15,500 nucleotides of DNA, from assembly GCA_016550415.1 (NCBI GenBank), contig JABXGU010000238.1, positions 1 to 15,500 of the forward strand. The letters are read 5' to 3'. Below, piece by piece: positions 225 through 9,386 of the stretch (its first letter is position 1; the number at the start of each line of letters is the position of its first letter). This stretch comes from an archaeon (GTDB lineage: Archaea; Asgardarchaeota; Hermodarchaeia; Hermodarchaeales; Hermodarchaeaceae). The notes beneath the pieces were generated by a model. That model was not told where the DNA came from. It searched no databases and saw only the letters and a list, made by a program, of their open reading frames with translations. The position numbers were made by a program, and so were the translations under genes.

Positions 225-1505
225 CTAGCTGGGAAGAGCCTTCAATATTTTCCCATAGGGAATTTCATATCGTTGCCCTTTAGGTTTGTAGAAGATTACT
301 GGATAGACAGATTTGCTGAAATGCTTTCTGTGTTTATTGTCCACTAAGAGAATGAAGTCTTTAAGTCCCAGATTGCGGAGAGCCTCCAGTTGGGCTTTTT
401 TCTTCTGTGTATACTCTTCTCGCCAATACCCGATGATTTCCAATAATACCTTCTTGTCATCTTTTACAAGGGCAAAGTCAGGAATTACCATACTTGAACC
501 GAAGGTTATTGCTTCGGGCTCACGAATAATATCCCATCCTCGAAACTTGTTGTTTTTCCATGCCCAATAGAACTGCTTTTCCACTTTAGAATCTAGGAAG
601 GCTTCTTCCTCATGTAACTCCCCACGGGGCAAGAAGGCTGGAAGCTTTTCCGGTGTAAGGTGGACCACGTAGTAGCGGTCACGAAGAACCACGTTGATTT
701 TCAAATCCACGAGCTGTATATTCAATCGCGAAGCTTCACGTAAAAGGTAGGTAATGACTTGTGCGATGTTCCAGCCAAAGGAGGAGGAGCGCCCAAAGAA
801 GAGGCGTGGTCCCATGATAGTGGCTTGTAAACCTTCATTTGTTTGTTCTAGATCGATGAGTACGCCGAAGCGTTTTGTAGAGTGGAATAGAACACGGGCA
901 GCACTTCCCAGACTTCCGCCAGTGATTGTGATGGATATTGATTCGCTGTTGTAGAGAAGTGTTTCAAGGACTTCAAAGTTGTATGCACTTAGGAGGTCTT
1001 TGGCTGTTGGACAACTTCCCTGGCGTTGGAGGAGCATATGCTCATCACGGTGAGCTGTCAGGAGGTTGTTCATCTTGGCTGCTTCGAGATTCAGGGTTTT
1101 GGCAATCTTGTCTAGAACAGCTTGGCTTTTTTCACGTGGGATAAATCCATTGTACTGTTCTTGGATAATTGACCAATACCAAAGTCGCAAATCTTCAAGA
1201 CTAGCTATTCCCAATCTCCGCAATTCTGTGAGTTCTTGGCTTGTAAGAAGGTCTTCTAATTTTCGAGCTTCGAAGATATAGAAACGTGATAATGCTGTAG
1301 CTACGAGAGCTCGTGCTATGCGTACATCGGGCACCCATGTTGTAGGAGTGTCTAAATCAACTTCTTCACGGTGCTTATCGATATAGGTTTCTAAAAAATC
1401 TATGAGACGTTTGGGGATTTCCTCATCGTCAGGATGGCGTAGAAAGTAGGGTGTCAATTGTCCACCAGAGCTATGGTATTTGAGGTATTGAAGACGTAAG
1501 ACCAT
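225..1505 (-). CDS. bax1: Bax1-type nuclease (DUF790), XPB partner
   Basis: This 426-residue protein matches the archaeal DUF790/Bax1 family, the structure-specific endonuclease that binds archaeal XPB and is thought to act in unwinding and incision of damaged DNA. The family is recognisable from the N-terminal LRLQYLKYHSSGGQLTPYF region and especially the C-terminal nuclease-like module: IPDFAL (341-346), then LLEIIGYW (354-361) and a lysine-rich helix (368-370), an arrangement like PD-(D/E)XK enzymes with D343 and E356 as candidate metal ligands. Length fits the family. The ATG lies 29 bases after the PIN-TPR stop, without a clear Shine-Dalgarno site, suggesting co-transcription. The XPB gene is about 2.4 kb upstream on the same strand, separated by the PIN-TPR gene and an opposite-strand gene, whereas the two are typically adjacent. 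Family assignment is fairly sure; the catalytic residues are inferred by eye. Confidence 0.85.
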   Translation of the reverse strand: MVLRLQYLKYHSSGGQLTPYFLRHPDDEEIPKRLIDFLETYIDKHREEVDLDTPTTWVPDVRIARALVATALSRFYIFEARKLEDLLTSQELTELRRLGIASLEDLRLWYWSIIQEQYNGFIPREKSQAVLDKIAKTLNLEAAKMNNLLTAHRDEHMLLQRQGSCPTAKDLLSAYNFEVLETLLYNSESISITITGGSLGSAARVLFHSTKRFGVLIDLEQTNEGLQATIMGPRLFFGRSSSFGWNIAQVITYLLREASRLNIQLVDLKINVVLRDRYYVVHLTPEKLPAFLPRGELHEEEAFLDSKVEKQFYWAWKNNKFRGWDIIREPEAITFGSSMVIPDFALVKDDKKVLLEIIGYWREEYTQKKKAQLEALRNLGLKDFILLVDNKHRKHFSKSVYPVIFYKPKGQRYEIPYGKILKALPS

Positions 1506-1534
1506 TGTCAGTAGTTTGCAAGGAGAGGTAATAT

Positions 1535-3436
1535 TTAATGGCTATCATTAAGTTGAGGCCCCAATTGGATTAAACGGAAGCCATGACCTCCCCGAATATA
1601 GATCCTACTCTTCCCACTTGGTTCTGCATTTATGAGGGCAAGTATCCTATAGCGTTGTTTTAGGCTGCGTGGAGGATGTGTAACCTTGAATTTGCCTTCA
1701 CCAAGTCGAACTTGTTCACCACTCTTTGCCTTCTCTTCAAGCAATACACCCTTTATCAAGAGCCCAAAATTCCAATTCCGTTTCAAGTTACGACAAATCA
1801 GAATGCTTCCTTCAAGTAACACCGTATCGACACGGTCAATCACCATCATCCAATCACTAAGATCTGGATGAAGCTTCTCCGCCAATAGACTAGTTTCAGT
1901 GAAATAATCAGGAGATGGATCCCTTTTCCTAGATAACTCACTCTTCAAGGTCTTTACTAGGGTCTTATCATGCCTCTTTTCTTTGAGCCATTTTTCTACT
2001 CGCTCAATTATTTCCAGAAATTCACTCTTCTTTTCTTGTCCTTCTGCGTAGTAGATGAGAGTCATCCGCTTCAATGCCGGTTCAAGTGCAGAAAATAAGT
2101 CAAAATATTGGATAATGTATATTACTTGGTTGAGGAGGCGCCAAGCTTCCCAGAATCTGCGCAATGTAAAATATAGGGAAGCCAAATCAACTAGAAACCG
2201 GATGACTTCTTCTGGATCTGTTATGAGGGGAAATTCGGTTGAAGTAATATCACCACGTATTACAAGCAGTGTCAGATAGAGTGCTTGAGAGGTAGCTTCC
2301 TCCTTTGTAAATTCCCATTCCTGGCATTTCCTGCTGAAGATGGAAAAGTACATTGTTGCGGTATCAAAATCCTCTAACAATATATTGATGGTTATGCGCA
2401 GTAGGTGTGTCATAATCATTAGGCGTCGATAAGTTGTTGCATCAGGACGGGTTGTAAGGAGGATGCGGTTGCATTCCTCGATGGCATTTTTTGCCTGAAC
2501 CAGATTTTCTTGTTCGCCGAGATAAAGATGGCAAAGGGCGGCAAGGTAATTGAGAAGAACCATGTCAGGTGTAATTTGTCGTATAAGTTTGCGGTGAGCA
2601 GTGGCAGAAAGTTCCCATGCTAATAAAACCAAGTGATTGTATAATTCCGTGTAAGCTGAATCAATCTCTTCAAGGACACTTTTGTAATTTTGTTCGTGAA
2701 TTTTCTGGACAAATACGGTATATCTGCGGCGCAATTCTTGTAGAAACGTGAGGAGTCCCAGTGCTTCTGTAGCAGACATGCCAATGAGTTCTTCTTTGTC
2801 AAGTATGGGACTGCGAAGTGTTCGTAGGATATGGAATGCCTGGTTTTCAATGAGTTTAATCCTGGTCATTGGATCATAAGCGGAACTACGAGCTAGACTA
2901 TACTTAATTTCAGTATTCAAAACACGTTCACGAAGATTTTCAAGAAAGGTTGAATCTTCTTCGTCTTTCAGGCTTCTCTCCAAGAGGTCAAGGAGGAAGG
3001 CGCTTCCCATTAAACCTTCAATTTTGGGTTCAAGACTGCGGAGACTCTGCAACAATTGAAAGTCTGAGCTTACTAACCATTTTTGATTCAACTTGCCAAG
3101 CACGATGAGAAGCGAGAGATCAGGAGCTTGTGGAATACGATCCAGAATTCCTTTTGCTTTGCTGATATATTCTTGTAACTCTTCATCAGATACACCAATA
3201 ATCTCGACAACATCTTTCACATAGCGGTGAAGGCTTCCATGCAATTCGTCCAAGATTTGGGGCGAGATGCATATTCTAATGGAAAGCCGATCGATAATCT
3301 GCTTAAACCGAGTAAGTACCTCTGGCTGATGACCGAAGGCTAGTATGAAGAAATTGGCATCAGCAGCAATGCGTGTCCATTGCCCTTCAGATGTCATATC
3401 TGGCACATCTGTTGAAGACCCGTCGAGAGGAGACAT
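1535..3436 (-). CDS. PIN-domain protein with TPR-like helical repeats
   Basis: This 633-residue protein starts with a PIN-like nuclease domain (about 22-150). The acidic residues expected of the fold are present: D26 in AADANFF, E64 in ILDEL, D106 in QAPDLSLL and D125 in SSDFQLL, so it could be an active metal-dependent RNase or DNase. Residues about 160-500 are almost all amphipathic helix with TPR-like segments (for example LAALCHLYLGEQ), suggesting a protein-binding scaffold. The last 80 residues (about 553-633) are predicted beta-rich and unrecognised. It is much larger than VapC toxins and has no neighbouring antitoxin, so a toxin role is unlikely. The ATG has AAGGA about 9 bases upstream. 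Its position directly before bax1, on the XPB strand, suggests a link to that repair pair, but this is inference. No gene symbol is known to me. Confidence 0.7.
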   Translation of the reverse strand: MSPLDGSSTDVPDMTSEGQWTRIAADANFFILAFGHQPEVLTRFKQIIDRLSIRICISPQILDELHGSLHRYVKDVVEIIGVSDEELQEYISKAKGILDRIPQAPDLSLLIVLGKLNQKWLVSSDFQLLQSLRSLEPKIEGLMGSAFLLDLLERSLKDEEDSTFLENLRERVLNTEIKYSLARSSAYDPMTRIKLIENQAFHILRTLRSPILDKEELIGMSATEALGLLTFLQELRRRYTVFVQKIHEQNYKSVLEEIDSAYTELYNHLVLLAWELSATAHRKLIRQITPDMVLLNYLAALCHLYLGEQENLVQAKNAIEECNRILLTTRPDATTYRRLMIMTHLLRITINILLEDFDTATMYFSIFSRKCQEWEFTKEEATSQALYLTLLVIRGDITSTEFPLITDPEEVIRFLVDLASLYFTLRRFWEAWRLLNQVIYIIQYFDLFSALEPALKRMTLIYYAEGQEKKSEFLEIIERVEKWLKEKRHDKTLVKTLKSELSRKRDPSPDYFTETSLLAEKLHPDLSDWMMVIDRVDTVLLEGSILICRNLKRNWNFGLLIKGVLLEEKAKSGEQVRLGEGKFKVTHPPRSLKQRYRILALINAEPSGKSRIYIRGGHGFRLIQLGPQLNDSH

Positions 3437-3578
3437 GATAATGATTCCTTAACATTACAGCAATACTACTAATTGCTAGAGGTGCAAATAAGTTGTAGGT
3501 AGCCTATTAGATTTATTACCTGAAAAGATAAATAGTCAGATTTGCGTGTTTAAATTTGCAGAATTATTGGTGATATTT

Positions 3579-3920
3579 ATGGTTCAGCAACCCGCGCTTT
3601 TTGGAGGAATAATGTTGGGTATCGCAGCTTGGCTGGAGGTCTGGGCTATCCTCTTCCTTGCCGAAGGAGCTTGGCAGCTCATCGTTATTCCGGGCCTATT
3701 CTTTGTTGCAGGTTTGTTCCTTGCAGGTACCCTTCAAGAAGGCAGCCAATCTGCAGAGTTAGCCATTGGTGGTGTTTGCATAGCTGTTGCGATAGGTTTT
3801 GTTGGTTGGTTCTGGATAATCATTGACTTGATGTGGGGTTCACTAGTATCCCTGGGTGCGGGAATCCTGATATTACTGGGCCTAGTCTTCATCGCAGGCG
3901 GCGCAAGCAAAGGCTACTAA
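3579..3920 (+). CDS. Small four-helix membrane protein
   Basis: This is a 113-residue, very hydrophobic protein with four likely membrane segments, at about 6-30, 32-50, 60-83 and 85-108, and a short GGASKGY tail. No family is recognised. The ATG at 3579 is chosen because GGTGAT (3569-3574), a match to the archaeal anti-Shine-Dalgarno target, lies 4 bases before it. An in-frame GTG at 3546 would add 11 residues; it has no ribosome-binding site, though an AT-rich ATTTATTA (3511-3518) could drive a short-leader transcript to it. The gene is divergent from the PIN-TPR gene and its stop overlaps the XPB stop by 4 bases (3917-3920), tail to tail. It interrupts an otherwise minus-strand block, so a functional link to repair is not implied. 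The glycine/alanine-rich helices with E20 and E29 in or near helix 1 are the only notable details. Confidence 0.6.
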   Translation: MVQQPALFGGIMLGIAAWLEVWAILFLAEGAWQLIVIPGLFFVAGLFLAGTLQEGSQSAELAIGGVCIAVAIGFVGWFWIIIDLMWGSLVSLGAGILILLGLVFIAGGASKGY

Positions 3921-5422
3921 GCAGCTGTATCATTATCCTCTCCAAAACGACGACGTCTGGCAATTCCATCCTCAATAGTGGATTCTGTAACTAGTTCAAT
4001 GAGAAATGCTTCATCTTTTTGTGGACGGAGGAGACGCCCCAAACGCTGGATGAATTCCCGTTTGCTTCCTGTCCCAGATATTATGATTCCAACGGAGGCA
4101 TCAGGAACATCTATTCCCTCATCCAAAACCTGTCCAGTAACAATTTTTGTAAATTGTCCACGCTTGAAGCCTGTGAGGATACGGTTCCGTTCAGAGACCT
4201 TTGTCTTATGTGTAATTAGAGGGATGCCAAAGATGTCGGATATGGTTTCAACAATACTTGTGTATCGTGAAAAAATAATGACCTTGTGATTTTTGTATTG
4301 GTCAAGCAGTTTTTCCACAAAATCTATTTTTCCAGAGGCTTCAAGGGCAACACGACGGGCTTTTTCAAGGTGGGAAAGTGCACTGCGAGCATCCGGGTCA
4401 AAGAGGGTACGTCCTACAATGGTGTCAAAGTTCCAGCTAGGCTCGATATCAGAGAGACGTCTTGTGTATTCGCGGAATATTGACATGTGGGATTCGTAGC
4501 GAATTTTTTCTTCATCCGTGAGAGTAATTTGGATTGTTCTGATACTGTAGGAGGCAAGATGACCCTCGCGTTCAAGAAGCTGTGGAGCGACACGATATAC
4601 GGTTGGTCCAACAAGGTAATCGAGTTCAAGATGGAGTTCATCATATCGCTCTGGTGTTGCTGTCAGTCCAAGACGATAGGGTGCTATGAGGAGCTCAGCA
4701 GACAGCCGGTAACTGGGACTGGGAAGATGATGAACTTCGTCAAACACAATTAATCCAAATATGTCCGCAATTTTTGGAGCCAAAAGAGATGCTGAATCAT
4801 ATGTTGACACAGTTATTGGAGTGACTGTTTTAGTCCCGCCGCCAAGCATACCTACATCAGGGACATGAAGCTGTGTTTTCAGAACCTCACTCCACTGGTT
4901 AAGGAGATCGATTGTAGGGACAACAATTAGAGTCTTTACACCTAATTGGCGAATTGCTTCTAATGCAATTATTGTCTTGCCAGAACCTGTTGGCAATACA
5001 ATGACTCCTCGCATCTTTGCCCCGAACCATCGTCTTAGAGCTTCTTGCTGATAGTCACGAAGAACCAAATCGAAATGGATTTCCTCCTTCGCCTCAGCAG
5101 GTAGAGAAAAGTCCAAAGCTAGGTGCGAGATAACAGGGTACCCCTTGGTTTCTAGGAATCTACGAATTGTGAAAAAGTCCATTATCCGAGCATGGAAAAC
5201 TCGTTCTTCAGCATCATAGGTGAGAAGGGATTTGATGTCAGTGATTTCAAGGAAACCAGTTGGCTTGAGAATAAGGTCACTTTTTCGTAATAATAATTCA
5301 GCGAAGCGAGAAATGCCTTGCAATTTTAGAATATCTTTTTGAAGACCTGGTGACAGCCCATATCCTATTTTTTCAAGAAGGCTCAGTAGCTCAGGCAGGG
5401 GATGCTGTGCTGCCTTTTCCAA
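3917..5422 (-). CDS. xpb: XPB/Rad25-type DNA helicase
   Basis: This superfamily-2 helicase resembles archaeal XPB, an ATP-dependent 3'-5' translocase that opens DNA in repair with Bax1. Numbering from the TTG at 5422, the motifs run in order: Q-motif-like LRDYQQEAL (121-129), Walker A LPTGSGKT (143-150), Ia VVPT (167-170), II DEVHH (228-232), III LTATPE (253-258), then an RYD (259-261) where XPB proteins carry the RED motif, VIIFSRY (381-387), QVLDEGIDVP (431-440) and QRLGRLLRP (459-467). The C-terminus is basic (ARRRRFG). Only TTG is available as a conventional start, with no Shine-Dalgarno site, and the frame upstream stays protein-like to 5549, so the annotated N-terminus is probably about 50 residues short (see next entry). 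Family call is very sure; the start is doubtful. Confidence 0.9.
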   Translation of the reverse strand: MEKAAQHPLPELLSLLEKIGYGLSPGLQKDILKLQGISRFAELLLRKSDLILKPTGFLEITDIKSLLTYDAEERVFHARIMDFFTIRRFLETKGYPVISHLALDFSLPAEAKEEIHFDLVLRDYQQEALRRWFGAKMRGVIVLPTGSGKTIIALEAIRQLGVKTLIVVPTIDLLNQWSEVLKTQLHVPDVGMLGGGTKTVTPITVSTYDSASLLAPKIADIFGLIVFDEVHHLPSPSYRLSAELLIAPYRLGLTATPERYDELHLELDYLVGPTVYRVAPQLLEREGHLASYSIRTIQITLTDEEKIRYESHMSIFREYTRRLSDIEPSWNFDTIVGRTLFDPDARSALSHLEKARRVALEASGKIDFVEKLLDQYKNHKVIIFSRYTSIVETISDIFGIPLITHKTKVSERNRILTGFKRGQFTKIVTGQVLDEGIDVPDASVGIIISGTGSKREFIQRLGRLLRPQKDEAFLIELVTESTIEDGIARRRRFGEDNDTAA

Positions 5423-5704: not shown

Positions 5705-6535
5705 GTGTCAATTGATGATGAGCTTCGTGAAATTGGTGCAAAGACAAGAGAAGCACATCGATTAGAGGAAGAGGGGAAAATAAGCGAAGCTGTGGAATTG
5801 CTTACTAAACTTTCTCAAGAGCTTCGAGCCTTAGCAGAACGTGCTGGAACATCTTCATTGCGAGGAGTCCTGATGCAGCGTAGTCGAGAATACGCAGACA
5901 ATGCCACACTTCTAAAACGGAAACACATGGAAGAGAAGCCAAGTGTAGAGCCAGCACCTCGAATGAAAGGGATGGCAGAGATTCAGTTCTTACGAGGAGC
6001 AGATGTGAGAACACAACTAATCGATTTGTTCCAATCTGCACAATATCGTATTTTAATTGCCACGCACCAAATTCATGCCGTTGAACTGCCAATAAAAGAT
6101 CGAGAAAAAGCACCTTTAGATTTGATTGGTCTTTTGAAGGAGCGCTCTGATGCAGGTGTAAAAGTACGGATTCTCACAACACCACCATCACATCTATCGG
6201 GAGTAACGAGATGGAAGCAAGCTGATGCTTTGCGTACTCTGGCAAGTCACGGTGTTGAGTTTCACCTGTGTTCAAGATTACACTTCAATGGTGTCCTAGT
6301 TGATGATACTGCGGTATGGCGAGGCACAGCATCTCTTACAGAAGAGGGCCTAATCGGCTTAGATGATGTAGTTGAATTTTCAACCGACCATTGGCTCAGA
6401 GCCATCTACCTTGATTTGTTCCGGGACAGATGGGAACGAAGTGATCTGACATGTGAACAATGCCATGATAAAACTTGTTTGGCAAAATTCAAGTCAGAGG
6501 ATCCACGGCGTAAATTTGAAGATGAAAGCCGATAA
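5705..6535 (+). CDS. MIT-like domain plus PLD-like domain protein
   Basis: This 276-residue protein has two modules. Residues 4-73 are three amphipathic helices with the pattern of MIT domains: an A..R.EE.G...EAVELL first hairpin and a final RSREYADNATLLKRK helix; MIT domains bind ESCRT-III tails. After a proline linker, residues 91-246 resemble a PLD-like domain: YRILIATHQ, a GVKVRILTT strand (151-159), then LHFNGVLVDD (192-201) and GTASLT (207-212). The expected HxK is H193-F-N195, so the catalytic lysine is missing and there is only one such motif; enzymatic activity is doubtful and a binding role is likelier. A C250/C253/C258 cluster near the end might bind zinc. The same order, MIT then inactive PLD-like, occurs in eukaryotic MITD1. 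A TrmB-type sensor-like PLD fold is an alternative for the second half. The start is GTG with AAGG about 8 bases before. It converges on the longin-wHTH gene, 10 bases away. Confidence 0.6.
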   Translation: MSIDDELREIGAKTREAHRLEEEGKISEAVELLTKLSQELRALAERAGTSSLRGVLMQRSREYADNATLLKRKHMEEKPSVEPAPRMKGMAEIQFLRGADVRTQLIDLFQSAQYRILIATHQIHAVELPIKDREKAPLDLIGLLKERSDAGVKVRILTTPPSHLSGVTRWKQADALRTLASHGVEFHLCSRLHFNGVLVDDTAVWRGTASLTEEGLIGLDDVVEFSTDHWLRAIYLDLFRDRWERSDLTCEQCHDKTCLAKFKSEDPRRKFEDESR

Positions 6536-6545
6536 TTAGTAAAAT

Positions 6546-7199
6546 CTAGGTTTCCCTAGTCGATTGATGCCCATGAATAACTTTAACGTAGCCATGTTCT
6601 TCTGAATACTGAATGATTTTTTCCACAATATCAGGAGTCAGTTTCAGTGCTTTAGCGATTTCTAGAGCAGTATGTTTACCGTCTGATAATAGAATCACTT
6701 CGATGGCATCGAAACCAAATTTGCCCACCAATTCTGATCGAATTTCAGAAGTCTTAGTTATCAAACGAGTAATTGAGGAAACACGAACAGGAAGGGGTTC
6801 CTCTTGAGGTTTATGTCCAACTAGCTTGTCAACCTCTAGGTGGAAATCACGTAAGAGAGCTTGAGCTTCAGGGCTGCTTCGTAGTGGTGAGCTTAGAAGA
6901 ATCATGTTTTCACCAAAGAACTTGAAGAAAACATTCCGCAGACCTTCAAGCAATGAACCAGTCGCGGTGTCTTTCTTCACGCAAACAAGAAAAACAAGCC
7001 CGGAATCAACAATATAATTGAAAGACATATCCTCAAATGCAATATCCTGGAGTTGCCTGCCAAGGAGTTCGGATTGGAAATGCACAATGGCCGAGAAAAA
7101 GCTGCTGAATAGGGTAGGGTCAAATTCGAGTGGGGAGAACGCCTTATGATAGAGGGGAATACCACTTGCATCAATTACCCAAACCGCATGACATACCAT
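6546..7199 (-). CDS. Longin-like domain protein with C-terminal winged helix
   Basis: This is a 217-residue protein. Residues 1-125 look like a longin/roadblock-type sensing fold: an opening strand HAVWVIDASGIPLYHKAF, a long helix (about 28-45), paired strands including LVFLVCVKK (68-76) and a closing helix (about 82-96). Such domains act as GTPase regulators or scaffolds and are abundant in Asgard archaea. After a linker, residues 163-210 form a probable winged helix: FDAIEVILLSDGKHTALEIAKAL, the recognition helix PDIVEKIIQYSEEHG and the strand YVKVI. The pairing suggests a signalling or DNA/protein-binding adaptor. The ATG (7197-7199) has only a weak GGGGA upstream. A longin identification rests on pattern, not on a profile match. 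The upstream gap holds an imperfect dyad and a box A. Confidence 0.6.
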   Translation of the reverse strand: MVCHAVWVIDASGIPLYHKAFSPLEFDPTLFSSFFSAIVHFQSELLGRQLQDIAFEDMSFNYIVDSGLVFLVCVKKDTATGSLLEGLRNVFFKFFGENMILLSSPLRSSPEAQALLRDFHLEVDKLVGHKPQEEPLPVRVSSITRLITKTSEIRSELVGKFGFDAIEVILLSDGKHTALEIAKALKLTPDIVEKIIQYSEEHGYVKVIHGHQSTRET

Positions 7200-7229
7200 G
7201 TGTTTTCCCCAGCCGGAAGTAATAATATT

Positions 7230-7262
7230 GCACTAATGTGCAAAAGCTTGTGCATAAGTGTG
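7230..7262. promoter_or_regulatory. Imperfect dyad in the longin-wHTH leader
   Basis: Arms CACTAATGTGCA (7231-7242) and TGTGCATAAGTG (7249-7260) are imperfect inverted repeats around a central AAGCTT. The dyad lies between the proposed box A (7291-7298) and the ATG (7199), just after the expected transcript start, where a repressor could act. The gene's own winged helix is a possible binder, but this is speculation. Confidence 0.3.
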
Positions 7263-7290
7263 TTGCTTTATTCAATAATCAAGCTATTGC

Positions 7291-7298
7291 TTTTATAT
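7291..7298 (-). promoter_or_regulatory. Box A-like element for the longin-wHTH gene
   Basis: ATATAAAA on the minus strand lies in the 145-base gap between the asnS stop and the longin-wHTH ATG. It would predict a transcript start near 7268 and a leader of about 70 bases. Other than this and the dyad, I see nothing in the gap. Confidence 0.3.
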
Positions 7299-7344
7299 GT
7301 GGTTTCATTTTGGAGCAATTAGTAAGAAGGCAGGACCTAGTTTC

Positions 7345-8658
7345 CTATGGCTTAATGCGACTTGGTGTCCTAGGGAAGAGACAGGTCTCACGTATATGTT
7401 TAAGCCCGAGTAACCAGGTCACTAATCGTTCGAGACCCATTCCAAATCCTGCATGTGGCGGAATACCAAATTTTCGCAACTCTAAATACCATTCATAGGA
7501 GCTTGCATCCAAGTTTTGTTCTTTGATGCGACTGAGCAGTTGGTCTAAATCATGAATACGTTGTCCGCCACTTGTGAGTTCACCATATCCCTTTGGCGCG
7601 ATTAAATCACTGCTCATCGTGACTTCAGGACGGTCAGGATCGGGAAGATGATAGAATGACCTTGATTTTGTAGGATAGCCTGTAATAAAGAATGGTTCCT
7701 TGAAATGCTTGGATATGGCACGTTCAGCTTCAGTACCCAAATCTTCGCCCCATGGTATCTTGAATCCCTTTTTAGCAGCAATGTCTATGGCTTCATCATA
7801 GCTTATACGTTTGAATGGGAGTGAAGGTACGGGGATTTCTGCCTTTAGGATTTCTTGTTGATATTTACATTCATTATGGGCATGTTTGCAAATGGCGTGA
7901 ACAAGACGCTCTTCAACACTCATTATATCATTATGATCAGCGAAGGTTAGCTCAGCTTCTAGGTGCCAAAATTCTGTTAGATGTTTTCTGGTCCGGTGTT
8001 TCTCCGCTCTGAAGCTTGGAGCAATAAGATAGACCTTTTCTAAACCACAAATTGCTGCTTCTTCATAGAGTTGGGCACTTTGACTGAGATATGCAGTGGT
8101 TTCGAAGTATTGGAGAGGGAATAGGGTTGCACCACCTTCAACACTGGCAGAAACTAGGATGGGGGGAAAAATCTCTGTGAATCCTTCACTATCGAAATGC
8201 TGGTGAGCAGCCTTGCTTATTTCTGCCTTGACCTGCATTATTGCGATTTGGCTTGGACTCCGTAAATATAGATGACGTTTATCGAAGAGAAAAGCATCAC
8301 CAGCATCTTTTTCTAATGGCCATTCTGGGTCAGCAAGATTCACTATTTCAAATGAAGAAATCTGCAATTCTACTCCAGTGGGCGCACGCTTATCAACGAC
8401 AATTTCACCAGTTACACGAATTGATGATTCTAATGTAGCAGTTTGCATGGCTTCGAAAACTGCCTCAGGTATTTTTCCGCGATGCCCGGCGATTTGAATG
8501 ATGCCAGTTGAATCCCGGAATATGATGAAGATTACTCCACCATGCTCTCTTTTTCGGTGAATCCATCCTGTTAGTGTTACTTTCTCACCAGCCATTGAAG
8601 TGCCAAGTTCAGATGCATAATGGCTTTTTCCGTATGTTTTCAATACTTTCCCAGTCAA
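7345..8658 (-). CDS. asnS: Asparaginyl-tRNA synthetase, archaeal type
   Basis: This 437-residue class IIb synthetase joins asparagine to tRNA-Asn in the cytoplasm. An N-terminal OB-fold anticodon-binding domain (about 24-106, with LTGWIHRKREHGG) precedes the catalytic core: motif 1 around FTEIFPPILV (160-169), motif 2 FRAEKHRTRKHLTEFWHLE (217-235) and motif 3 GFGMGLERL (404-412). Asn rather than Asp specificity is favoured by the ending LFPRTPSRIKP, since archaeal AspRS proteins usually end FPRD-R, by SGGQRIHD, and by close overall similarity to the archaeal AsnRS pattern. Length is normal. The start is TTG at 8658, supported by AGGTGA about 7 bases upstream; no ATG is suitably placed. The gene follows the GTPase after 56 bases on the same strand and may share its transcript. 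Confidence 0.9.
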   Translation of the reverse strand: MTGKVLKTYGKSHYASELGTSMAGEKVTLTGWIHRKREHGGVIFIIFRDSTGIIQIAGHRGKIPEAVFEAMQTATLESSIRVTGEIVVDKRAPTGVELQISSFEIVNLADPEWPLEKDAGDAFLFDKRHLYLRSPSQIAIMQVKAEISKAAHQHFDSEGFTEIFPPILVSASVEGGATLFPLQYFETTAYLSQSAQLYEEAAICGLEKVYLIAPSFRAEKHRTRKHLTEFWHLEAELTFADHNDIMSVEERLVHAICKHAHNECKYQQEILKAEIPVPSLPFKRISYDEAIDIAAKKGFKIPWGEDLGTEAERAISKHFKEPFFITGYPTKSRSFYHLPDPDRPEVTMSSDLIAPKGYGELTSGGQRIHDLDQLLSRIKEQNLDASSYEWYLELRKFGIPPHAGFGMGLERLVTWLLGLKHIRETCLFPRTPSRIKP

Positions 8659-8714
8659 ATAATCTCACCTTAATTGATAACTACATCATCACATAGTAAT
8701 TTGGTCTAGTTTGT

Positions 8715-9233
8715 TTAGCTTGTGCGAACACGAACATATGCTAGCATTTCCCTAGCCATATAATCGAAGGCAGGTGTCACGTTCAAGTCAGCCTTTGAGC
8801 TAGTCTCAAAATAAGCTTTTACTCCGAACTTCTTCGCGAATTCTATAACTTCGTTCCGATTTACAGTTCGTTGTAAATCTGCCTTTGTGCCAATTAGAAT
8901 AATCGGGATATTGTCAGTGTTTCCACGAATCAATTCCATCCACTGGTCTAATTTTAAGAATGTACTAAAGCGATTCAAATCAAAGGATATCATTGCACCA
9001 CGGGCGCCATAACAAAACTTTGGTAGTAAGAAGCGGAAGCGTTTTTCGCCTCCAAAATCCCAAATCTGCAGTTTGACAGCTGTATCTCCATAACCATCAT
9101 GTACTACGAAATTCTTGGCTGCAAAAGCAGTGCCCACTGTCAAAAGCGAGTCGTGGTATACGCCCTCCACGAACCTACGGACAAACGTAGTTTTGCCAAC
9201 ACCGCCTTCGCCAGCGACGATTAATTTTAGCAT
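8715..9233 (-). CDS. Ras-superfamily small GTPase
   Basis: This 172-residue protein is a complete G domain: G1 GEGGVGKT (8-15), a switch I region with T32 and T35, G3 WDFGGEKRF (58-66), G4 GTKADL (115-120) and G5 ETSSK (143-147). Three positions depart from canonical Ras: the G3 motif is DFGGE, so the catalytic glutamine is replaced by glutamate; G4 is TKAD rather than NKxD, as in Rho-like and some archaeal GTPases; and the end, VRVRTS, has no cysteine for lipidation. It should therefore be soluble or bound through partners. The ATG at 9233 is chosen because AAGGA lies a few bases upstream and the Rossmann strand LKLIVAGEGG begins immediately; the frame continues upstream to 9332 but that stretch is not protein-like. 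It is divergent from the ferredoxin-AOR operon. Confidence 0.9.
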   Translation of the reverse strand: MLKLIVAGEGGVGKTTFVRRFVEGVYHDSLLTVGTAFAAKNFVVHDGYGDTAVKLQIWDFGGEKRFRFLLPKFCYGARGAMISFDLNRFSTFLKLDQWMELIRGNTDNIPIILIGTKADLQRTVNRNEVIEFAKKFGVKAYFETSSKADLNVTPAFDYMAREMLAYVRVRTS

Positions 9234-9386
9234 GATTCCTTCTAGTTCCAAAGCTGCGCGCTTCCAGCTCCTTTCTAATTTGAGTAGGATTAGGATACAA
9301 AAAACTGTTTTGGAGAATATTGAATTACTCATTCACAACCCTTTTTTGATTGAAGACAGCGGTATCGTCAATAACGATGTGATTGA

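Follow-up and report, generated by a model that had tools for sequence, protein, structure and literature searches.

The eukaryotic protein MITD1 couples an N-terminal MIT domain to a phospholipase D (PLD)-like domain that has lost its catalytic function. The available parts of two papers describe it as binding membranes and the endosomal sorting complex required for transport III (ESCRT-III), possibly as a tether (PMC6015221, PMC9477494), and those of the second map the MIT-domain cofactors of ESCRT-III in humans; the Asgard literature, in the portions available, discusses MIT as part of Vps4. The 15,500-nucleotide archaeal stretch analysed here (the window) contains on its forward strand, at 5705-6535, a 276-residue open reading frame (ORF) with a GTG start. 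Its product comprises an MIT-type bundle, a linker and one PLD-like domain whose catalytic lysine and asparagine are replaced throughout the family, with histidine, aspartate and glutamate fixed, and it carries four invariant cysteines. We regard it, with moderate confidence, as a non-catalytic representative of an Asgard MIT-PLD family that would act as a PLD scaffold, docking on ESCRT-III and binding a ligand, and so work like MITD1.

The window protein belongs to a conserved Asgard family. Alignment A1, drawn from 51 database-search proteins without P0002, identical to the window protein, and P0052, a fragment, holds the window protein and 49 relatives, which are 53-86% identical to it across its full length. 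A scan of genome contigs with the single sequence found no relative; the same scan with the alignment found eight loci in named genomes, 8/8 in Hermodarchaeota or 'Hermod' metagenome-assembled genomes, and this kinship bears out the Asgard host on which an earlier note, made from the DNA letters, had made its ESCRT interpretation depend. Some database relatives bear other Asgard labels, as assigned by their sources. The window-family profile has strong matches in 13/227 Asgard genomes; five of the 18 matched genomes gave weak matches only (E from 1e-4 to 4e-6), mostly to shorter proteins, and were excluded from the family. A plasmid collection contained no match, and a mobile element was rejected on that ground.

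Both fold and Pfam place the second half of the protein in the PLD-like superfamily. PLDc_2 matches residues 105-220 of the window protein (E=1.4e-9) and 50/50 family members, the AlphaFold2 (AF2) model has PLD-like elements at residues 93-245, and the best fold matches of the domain are the single-HKD nucleases Nuc and NucT. The earlier note's assignment of residues 91-246 to this fold is thereby upheld, as is its reading of the HxK motif as H-F-N with the lysine lost, N195 being present in 50/50; it had overlooked a second lost catalytic residue, the asparagine of GSxN, whose position 210 is P, S, A or Q in 50/50. The catalytic HKD signature (HxKx4D with GSxN) is therefore absent, with lysine in 0/50 and asparagine in 0/50, and H193, N195, D200, D221 and E224 are each found in 50/50. 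These counts are of alignment columns over three clades (50 window-family, 16 Jord and 45 Hermodarchaeal paralogue sequences); a regular-expression count instead gives HxK or HxN with a GSxN-type motif in 15/16 Jord, 49/50 window-family and 42/45 paralogue proteins. To judge from its motifs, the domain looks like a non-catalytic pseudoenzyme.

In the two other clades both the lysine and the asparagine are present in 61/61 aligned homologues. The Jord/Freyarchaeial homologues combine a Pfam-significant MIT domain with an intact HKD: the full-length Jord proteins scanned exceed the Pfam MIT cut-off (39.4 and 38.1 bits for L025 and L024; cut-off 30), PF04212 and PF13091 occur together in 14/69 homologues, and alignments to the window-family profile cover residues 16-262 for the G077 protein (E=1.7e-42) and 16-263 for the G079 protein (E=4.3e-42). 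The Hermodarchaeal paralogue likewise retains HKD, and the paralogues scanned have no Pfam MIT match over the cut-off. Both groups share with the window protein a helical N-terminus, the PLD-like domain and the four-cysteine site, but differ from it in their intact HxK and GSxN; some homologues are annotated 'phospholipase D-like' or 'phospholipase D family'. Because these homologues keep HKD, the window family can be read as one branch of an Asgard MIT-PLD family, a branch of pseudoenzymes whose inactivity looks derived. The Jord/Freyarchaeial proteins with MIT and intact HKD and the HKD-keeping paralogue are, on their sequences, newly seen here. The wider alignment (A4) includes 21 of the 50 A1 rows, and P0112, P0115 and P0117-P0122 were dropped from the 69 homologues; the tree has 35 rows, namely 12/50 of the window family, 8/16 Jord, 10/45 paralogues, four outgroup sequences and G092. 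In G092 (L067:4819-13923) a 1331-residue ORF that ends in the PLD-plus-Cys domain adjoins a 1060-residue ORF and a double-GTPase gene, an arrangement resembling a GTPase-centred conflict system.

The cysteines extend across the same three clades. C250, C253 and C258 occur in 16, 16 and 15 of the 16 Jord proteins and each in 44/45 paralogues, and a regular expression for the C-terminal CxxCx4C finds it in 15/16 Jord, 50/50 window-family and 39/45 paralogue proteins. The earlier note saw this cluster correctly, and it is invariant in the window family, but what was there called an added oddity is a family-wide feature of four cysteines including C189. They may form a putative metal site tying the C-terminal tail, for which the AF2 model has a predicted local distance difference test (pLDDT) below 50, to the strand before the motif histidine.

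The N-terminus is modelled as a three-helix MIT-type bundle, an identification that is weak by sequence alone. The whole-protein AF2 model has pLDDT 77 and a predicted template modelling score of 0.57, and the N-terminus modelled alone reaches pLDDT 91.7. Foldseek with the N-terminus alone returns MIT structures at ranks 1-18, none with E under 0.001, and TPR and designed bundles come close behind. In hhalign the window-family N-terminus scores 33.0 against Vps4 MIT (probability 84.5, colinear over 13-71/12-70), the best of 89 decoys reaching 17.0, and a profile-profile comparison with Jord MIT gives 27.7 (best of 89 decoys 17.9); a mixed wider-family profile matches the MIT chain of Vps4B (E=3.1e-5). 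Several results weigh against an MIT identity. Pfam gives the window protein no MIT (PF04212) match at E<=1; matches in 16/50 family members are weak and below the cut-off (best E=0.0078), an unrelated HAD family matching 17/50; and the A1 profile alone retrieves coiled coils and chains resembling TPRs but no MIT chain. Because a genome search with Pfam MIT at E<=1 also finds matches in 12/14 control genomes, sub-threshold MIT matches were not counted as evidence alone. The bundle, then, falls short of the Pfam cut-off on its own sequence but is homologous to established MIT sequences, through the profile score of 33.0 and the homologues over the cut-off. The earlier three-helix MIT assignment (residues 4-73) is supported by the helices, modelled at 3-77, the fold and the profile-profile match, and the lack of a Pfam match in the window protein weighs against it; the doubt then raised, that the helices might match only generic coiled coils or TPRs, holds for the A1 profile but not for the fold, the profile-profile comparison or the homologues with a curated MIT match. 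A separate 231-residue Asgard protein (L032:1069-1764) has an MIT-like N-terminus (weak A1 match, residues 6-88, E=4.3e-5) and a C-terminal zinc ribbon below the cut-off, and no Pfam MIT match.

Possible partners are encoded in the same genomes. ORFs with MIT over the cut-off, read as Vps4-type ATPases, occur in 8/8 of the relatives' Hermod genomes and Snf7 (ESCRT-III) in 7/8, none being found in G005, the smallest at 1.7 Mb. Among the ESCRT-III tails of six Hermod genomes (identical tails counted once), those of one protein type finish with LxxEIxxLK, and the second type contains LPxVP. These resemble the consensus MIT-interacting motifs MIM1 and MIM2 and are candidate MIM tails; the available part of PMC7240154 describes Asgard MIM-like motifs. 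The available part of PMC10936438 presents Hermodarchaeia as lacking Vps4 and ESCRT-III, whereas such genes are present here in L055 and L057-L061; that statement may mean extended families only.

We infer from these features that the window protein binds both ESCRT and membrane. The MIT bundle would bind the MIM-like tails of ESCRT-III filaments, and the PLD-like domain would perhaps be dimeric, as other single-HKD PLD proteins are. Its emptied but conserved pocket would bind a phosphate-bearing ligand, most likely a membrane lipid, and a metal bound by the four cysteines might keep the C-terminal tail close to the pocket. ESCRT-III would then be tethered to the membrane at division or scission, in the manner of MITD1. 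The features concerned are located in Table 1.

Table 1. Location of the MIT-PLD gene and its features in the window
Feature	Position	Strand	Basis or conservation
MIT-PLD ORF, 276 aa	5705..6535, stop codon included	+	full length conserved in 49 relatives
MIT-type three-helix bundle, residues 3-77 (H1 3-22, H2 26-46, H3 50-77)	5711..5935	+	AF2, Foldseek, hhalign
Variable linker, residues 78-91	5936..5977	+	pLDDT <50 at 77-89, columns mostly unconserved
PLD-like domain, residues 92-247	5978..6445	+	Pfam PLDc_2
C189, first Cys of putative four-Cys site, four residues before motif His	6269..6271	+	50/50 window family, 16/16 Jord, 44/45 paralogues
Degenerate HxK, H193-F194-N195	6281..6289	+	N in 50/50; K in 16/16 Jord and 45/45 paralogues
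D200 of HxKx4D, retained	6302..6304	+	50/50
Degenerate GSxN, G207-T-A-S210	6323..6334	+	position 210 is Asn in 0/50, against 16/16 Jord and 45/45 paralogues
E224, retained acidic residue	6374..6376	+	E in 50/50 and 16/16 Jord; T/S in 45/45 Hermod paralogues
C250-x2-C253-x4-C258, rest of putative metal site	6452..6478	+	invariant 50/50; low-confidence part of model

A stronger claim, that the protein is the archaeal orthologue of MITD1 and that an Asgard MIT-PLD protein was the ancestor of MITD1, earns very little credence from us. The domain order and the catalytic loss are the same in both, the mixed wider-family profile matches the MIT domain of MITD1 (E=0.049), and Foldseek with the whole model spans both MITD1 domains (255-256 columns, ranks 10 and 12), though with a template modelling (TM) score of 0.30 and a root-mean-square deviation of 16.6, so that the domains are oriented differently from those of MITD1; its absence from the 50 rows of a second structural alignment excludes nothing. 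Against orthology, MIT_C (PF16565) has no match in the window protein at E<=1, matches 1/82 aligned members of the wider family at E=0.05 and exceeds its cut-off in 0/227 Asgard genomes (3/227 at E<=0.001), and strong matches to the family itself come from only 13 of these 227. The three MIT_C-matching ORFs appear by eye to be an ABC ATPase, a hydrolase of the nitrilase type and a large protein that contains a PLD-like stretch itself. With MIT_C unrecognised, kinship to MITD1 therefore stays unsupported, and inactivation in the window branch looks independent of MITD1 because the closest homologues keep HKD. Of the MITD1 architecture that the earlier note proposed, the MIT-type bundle with a degenerate PLD-like domain is supported and the specific tie is unsupported; by analogy, the protein is best read as MITD1-like in its working, which falls short of identity with MITD1.

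The fixed residues bear on whether chemistry persists, since five positions invariant in 50/50 would be unusual for a functionless pocket; an enzyme of altered chemistry, in which the invariant histidine and asparagine perform a different phosphotransfer, is nevertheless improbable, as two canonical catalytic residues are lost in every family member and present in every aligned homologue of the other clades. We would sooner entertain, as an unlikely alternative, a nucleic-acid-binding pseudo-nuclease, ESCRT-III-docked or not, that handles DNA alongside the repair pair XPB-Bax1 and might, for instance, guard chromosomes at division. Yet the gene is divergent from XPB and outside its operon, the neighbourhood is little informative because the whole surrounding block is syntenic, the protein is mildly acidic (isoelectric point 6.3), and its PADLOC matches are weak and PLD-type only. 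Those matches (MkoC E=0.0006, DpdK E=0.0014), together with NCBIfam matches to DpdK and DrmC (E=0.002-0.003) that fall far short of the cut-off, also led us to reject a defence protein; the intact relatives match DrmC and DpdK better, as PLDs generally do. Distinctly unlikely, too, is a reading of the N-terminus as a generic oligomerisation module, three-helix or TPR-like and without an ESCRT link, on a TrmB-type PLD-like ligand sensor. The coiled coil and TPR-like matches of the A1 profile and the bundles ranking close behind MIT chains favour it, as does TrmBL2 at Foldseek rank 1 for the whole model; TrmB nevertheless falls below the nucleases on the second alignment, the winged helix (PF01978) has no Pfam match, only helices, and no strand, precede residue 93 and the bundle they form is not a winged helix. 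A TrmB sensor, which the earlier note had named as a possible better account of the second half, was rejected on these grounds. The MITD1-like scaffold is the explanation we favour.

The window gene lies beside a divergent XPB gene in 7/8 loci (L006 ends before XPB) and, on its other side, a convergent longin/winged-helix-like gene followed by the aspartyl-tRNA synthetase (AspRS) gene in 8/8 (AspRS cut by the contig end in L003), forming an operon with none of them. A promoter scan gives 3 sites against 2.7 in shuffles, and terminator-like sites number 2 against 1.0. Window 225-5422 is occupied by a block that recurs in five Hermod loci and comprises a Bax1 (DUF790) nuclease, a 633-residue ORF, a small hydrophobic ORF and an XPB-like helicase; the 633-residue ORF has a weak PIN match (E=0.05), and its conserved PIN-like/helical product, encoded between XPB and Bax1, may be a third partner. 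At 6546-9332 the longin/winged-helix-like ORF, whose Pfam matches are below cut-off, and a Ras-like GTPase flank AspRS in 7/8 loci (the GTPase lies 1.7 kb farther in L004, and L003 ends before it), a possible pair of GTPase and regulator. In three Jord genomes a DUF2070 membrane-protein gene immediately precedes the MIT-PLD gene on the same strand, the two intervals measured being 19 and 6 bp, and this adjacency hints at a membrane link of MIT-PLD; we found no paper on DUF2070 in the open-licence literature. At L065:9207-11955 and L066:4074-6941 the order is DUF2070 then MIT-PLD, and further DUF2070 copies lie elsewhere in the genome.

The wider scenario is one that we think unlikely but worth stating: Asgard archaea would use PLD enzymes docked on ESCRT-III at sites of division or scission, the window branch having turned into a structural tether, and MITD1 would be the eukaryotic survivor, or a parallel, of a pre-eukaryotic MIT-PLD module. 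On this view the intact forms, as in the Jord and paralogue clades, would cut either lipids or nucleic acid caught at the site. A family of Asgard MIT-PLD proteins in which some branches keep the catalytic motif and others are degenerate would provide a second class of candidate ESCRT-III clients and a likely pseudoenzyme arising inside a traceable archaeal lineage, and the origin of MITD1-like adaptors becomes testable. In the open-licence literature, where absence is not absence in print, we found no paper linking MITD1 and Asgard and none joining MIT domain, Asgard, ESCRT and phospholipase D, though two papers do contain Asgard together with phospholipase D and ESCRT; the available parts of PMC10936438 and PMC8970359 do not mention 'phospholipase'.

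Among known proteins, Nuc and NucT share with the window protein the single PLD domain and are its best fold matches, but they differ from it in its N-terminal MIT-type bundle, its cysteine tail and the loss of lysine and asparagine in its branch. Asgard Vps4/CdvC has a comparable MIT-type bundle, whereas the window protein has a PLD-like domain in place of the AAA ATPase. TrmB and TrmBL2 share a PLD-like C-terminal domain, but the window protein lacks their winged helix and the TrmB Z is below those of NucT and Nuc. MITD1 has the same order of MIT followed by a non-catalytic PLD-like domain; it is set apart from the window protein by the latter's match to PLDc_2 and not MIT_C, its four invariant cysteines and its catalytically intact sister clades.
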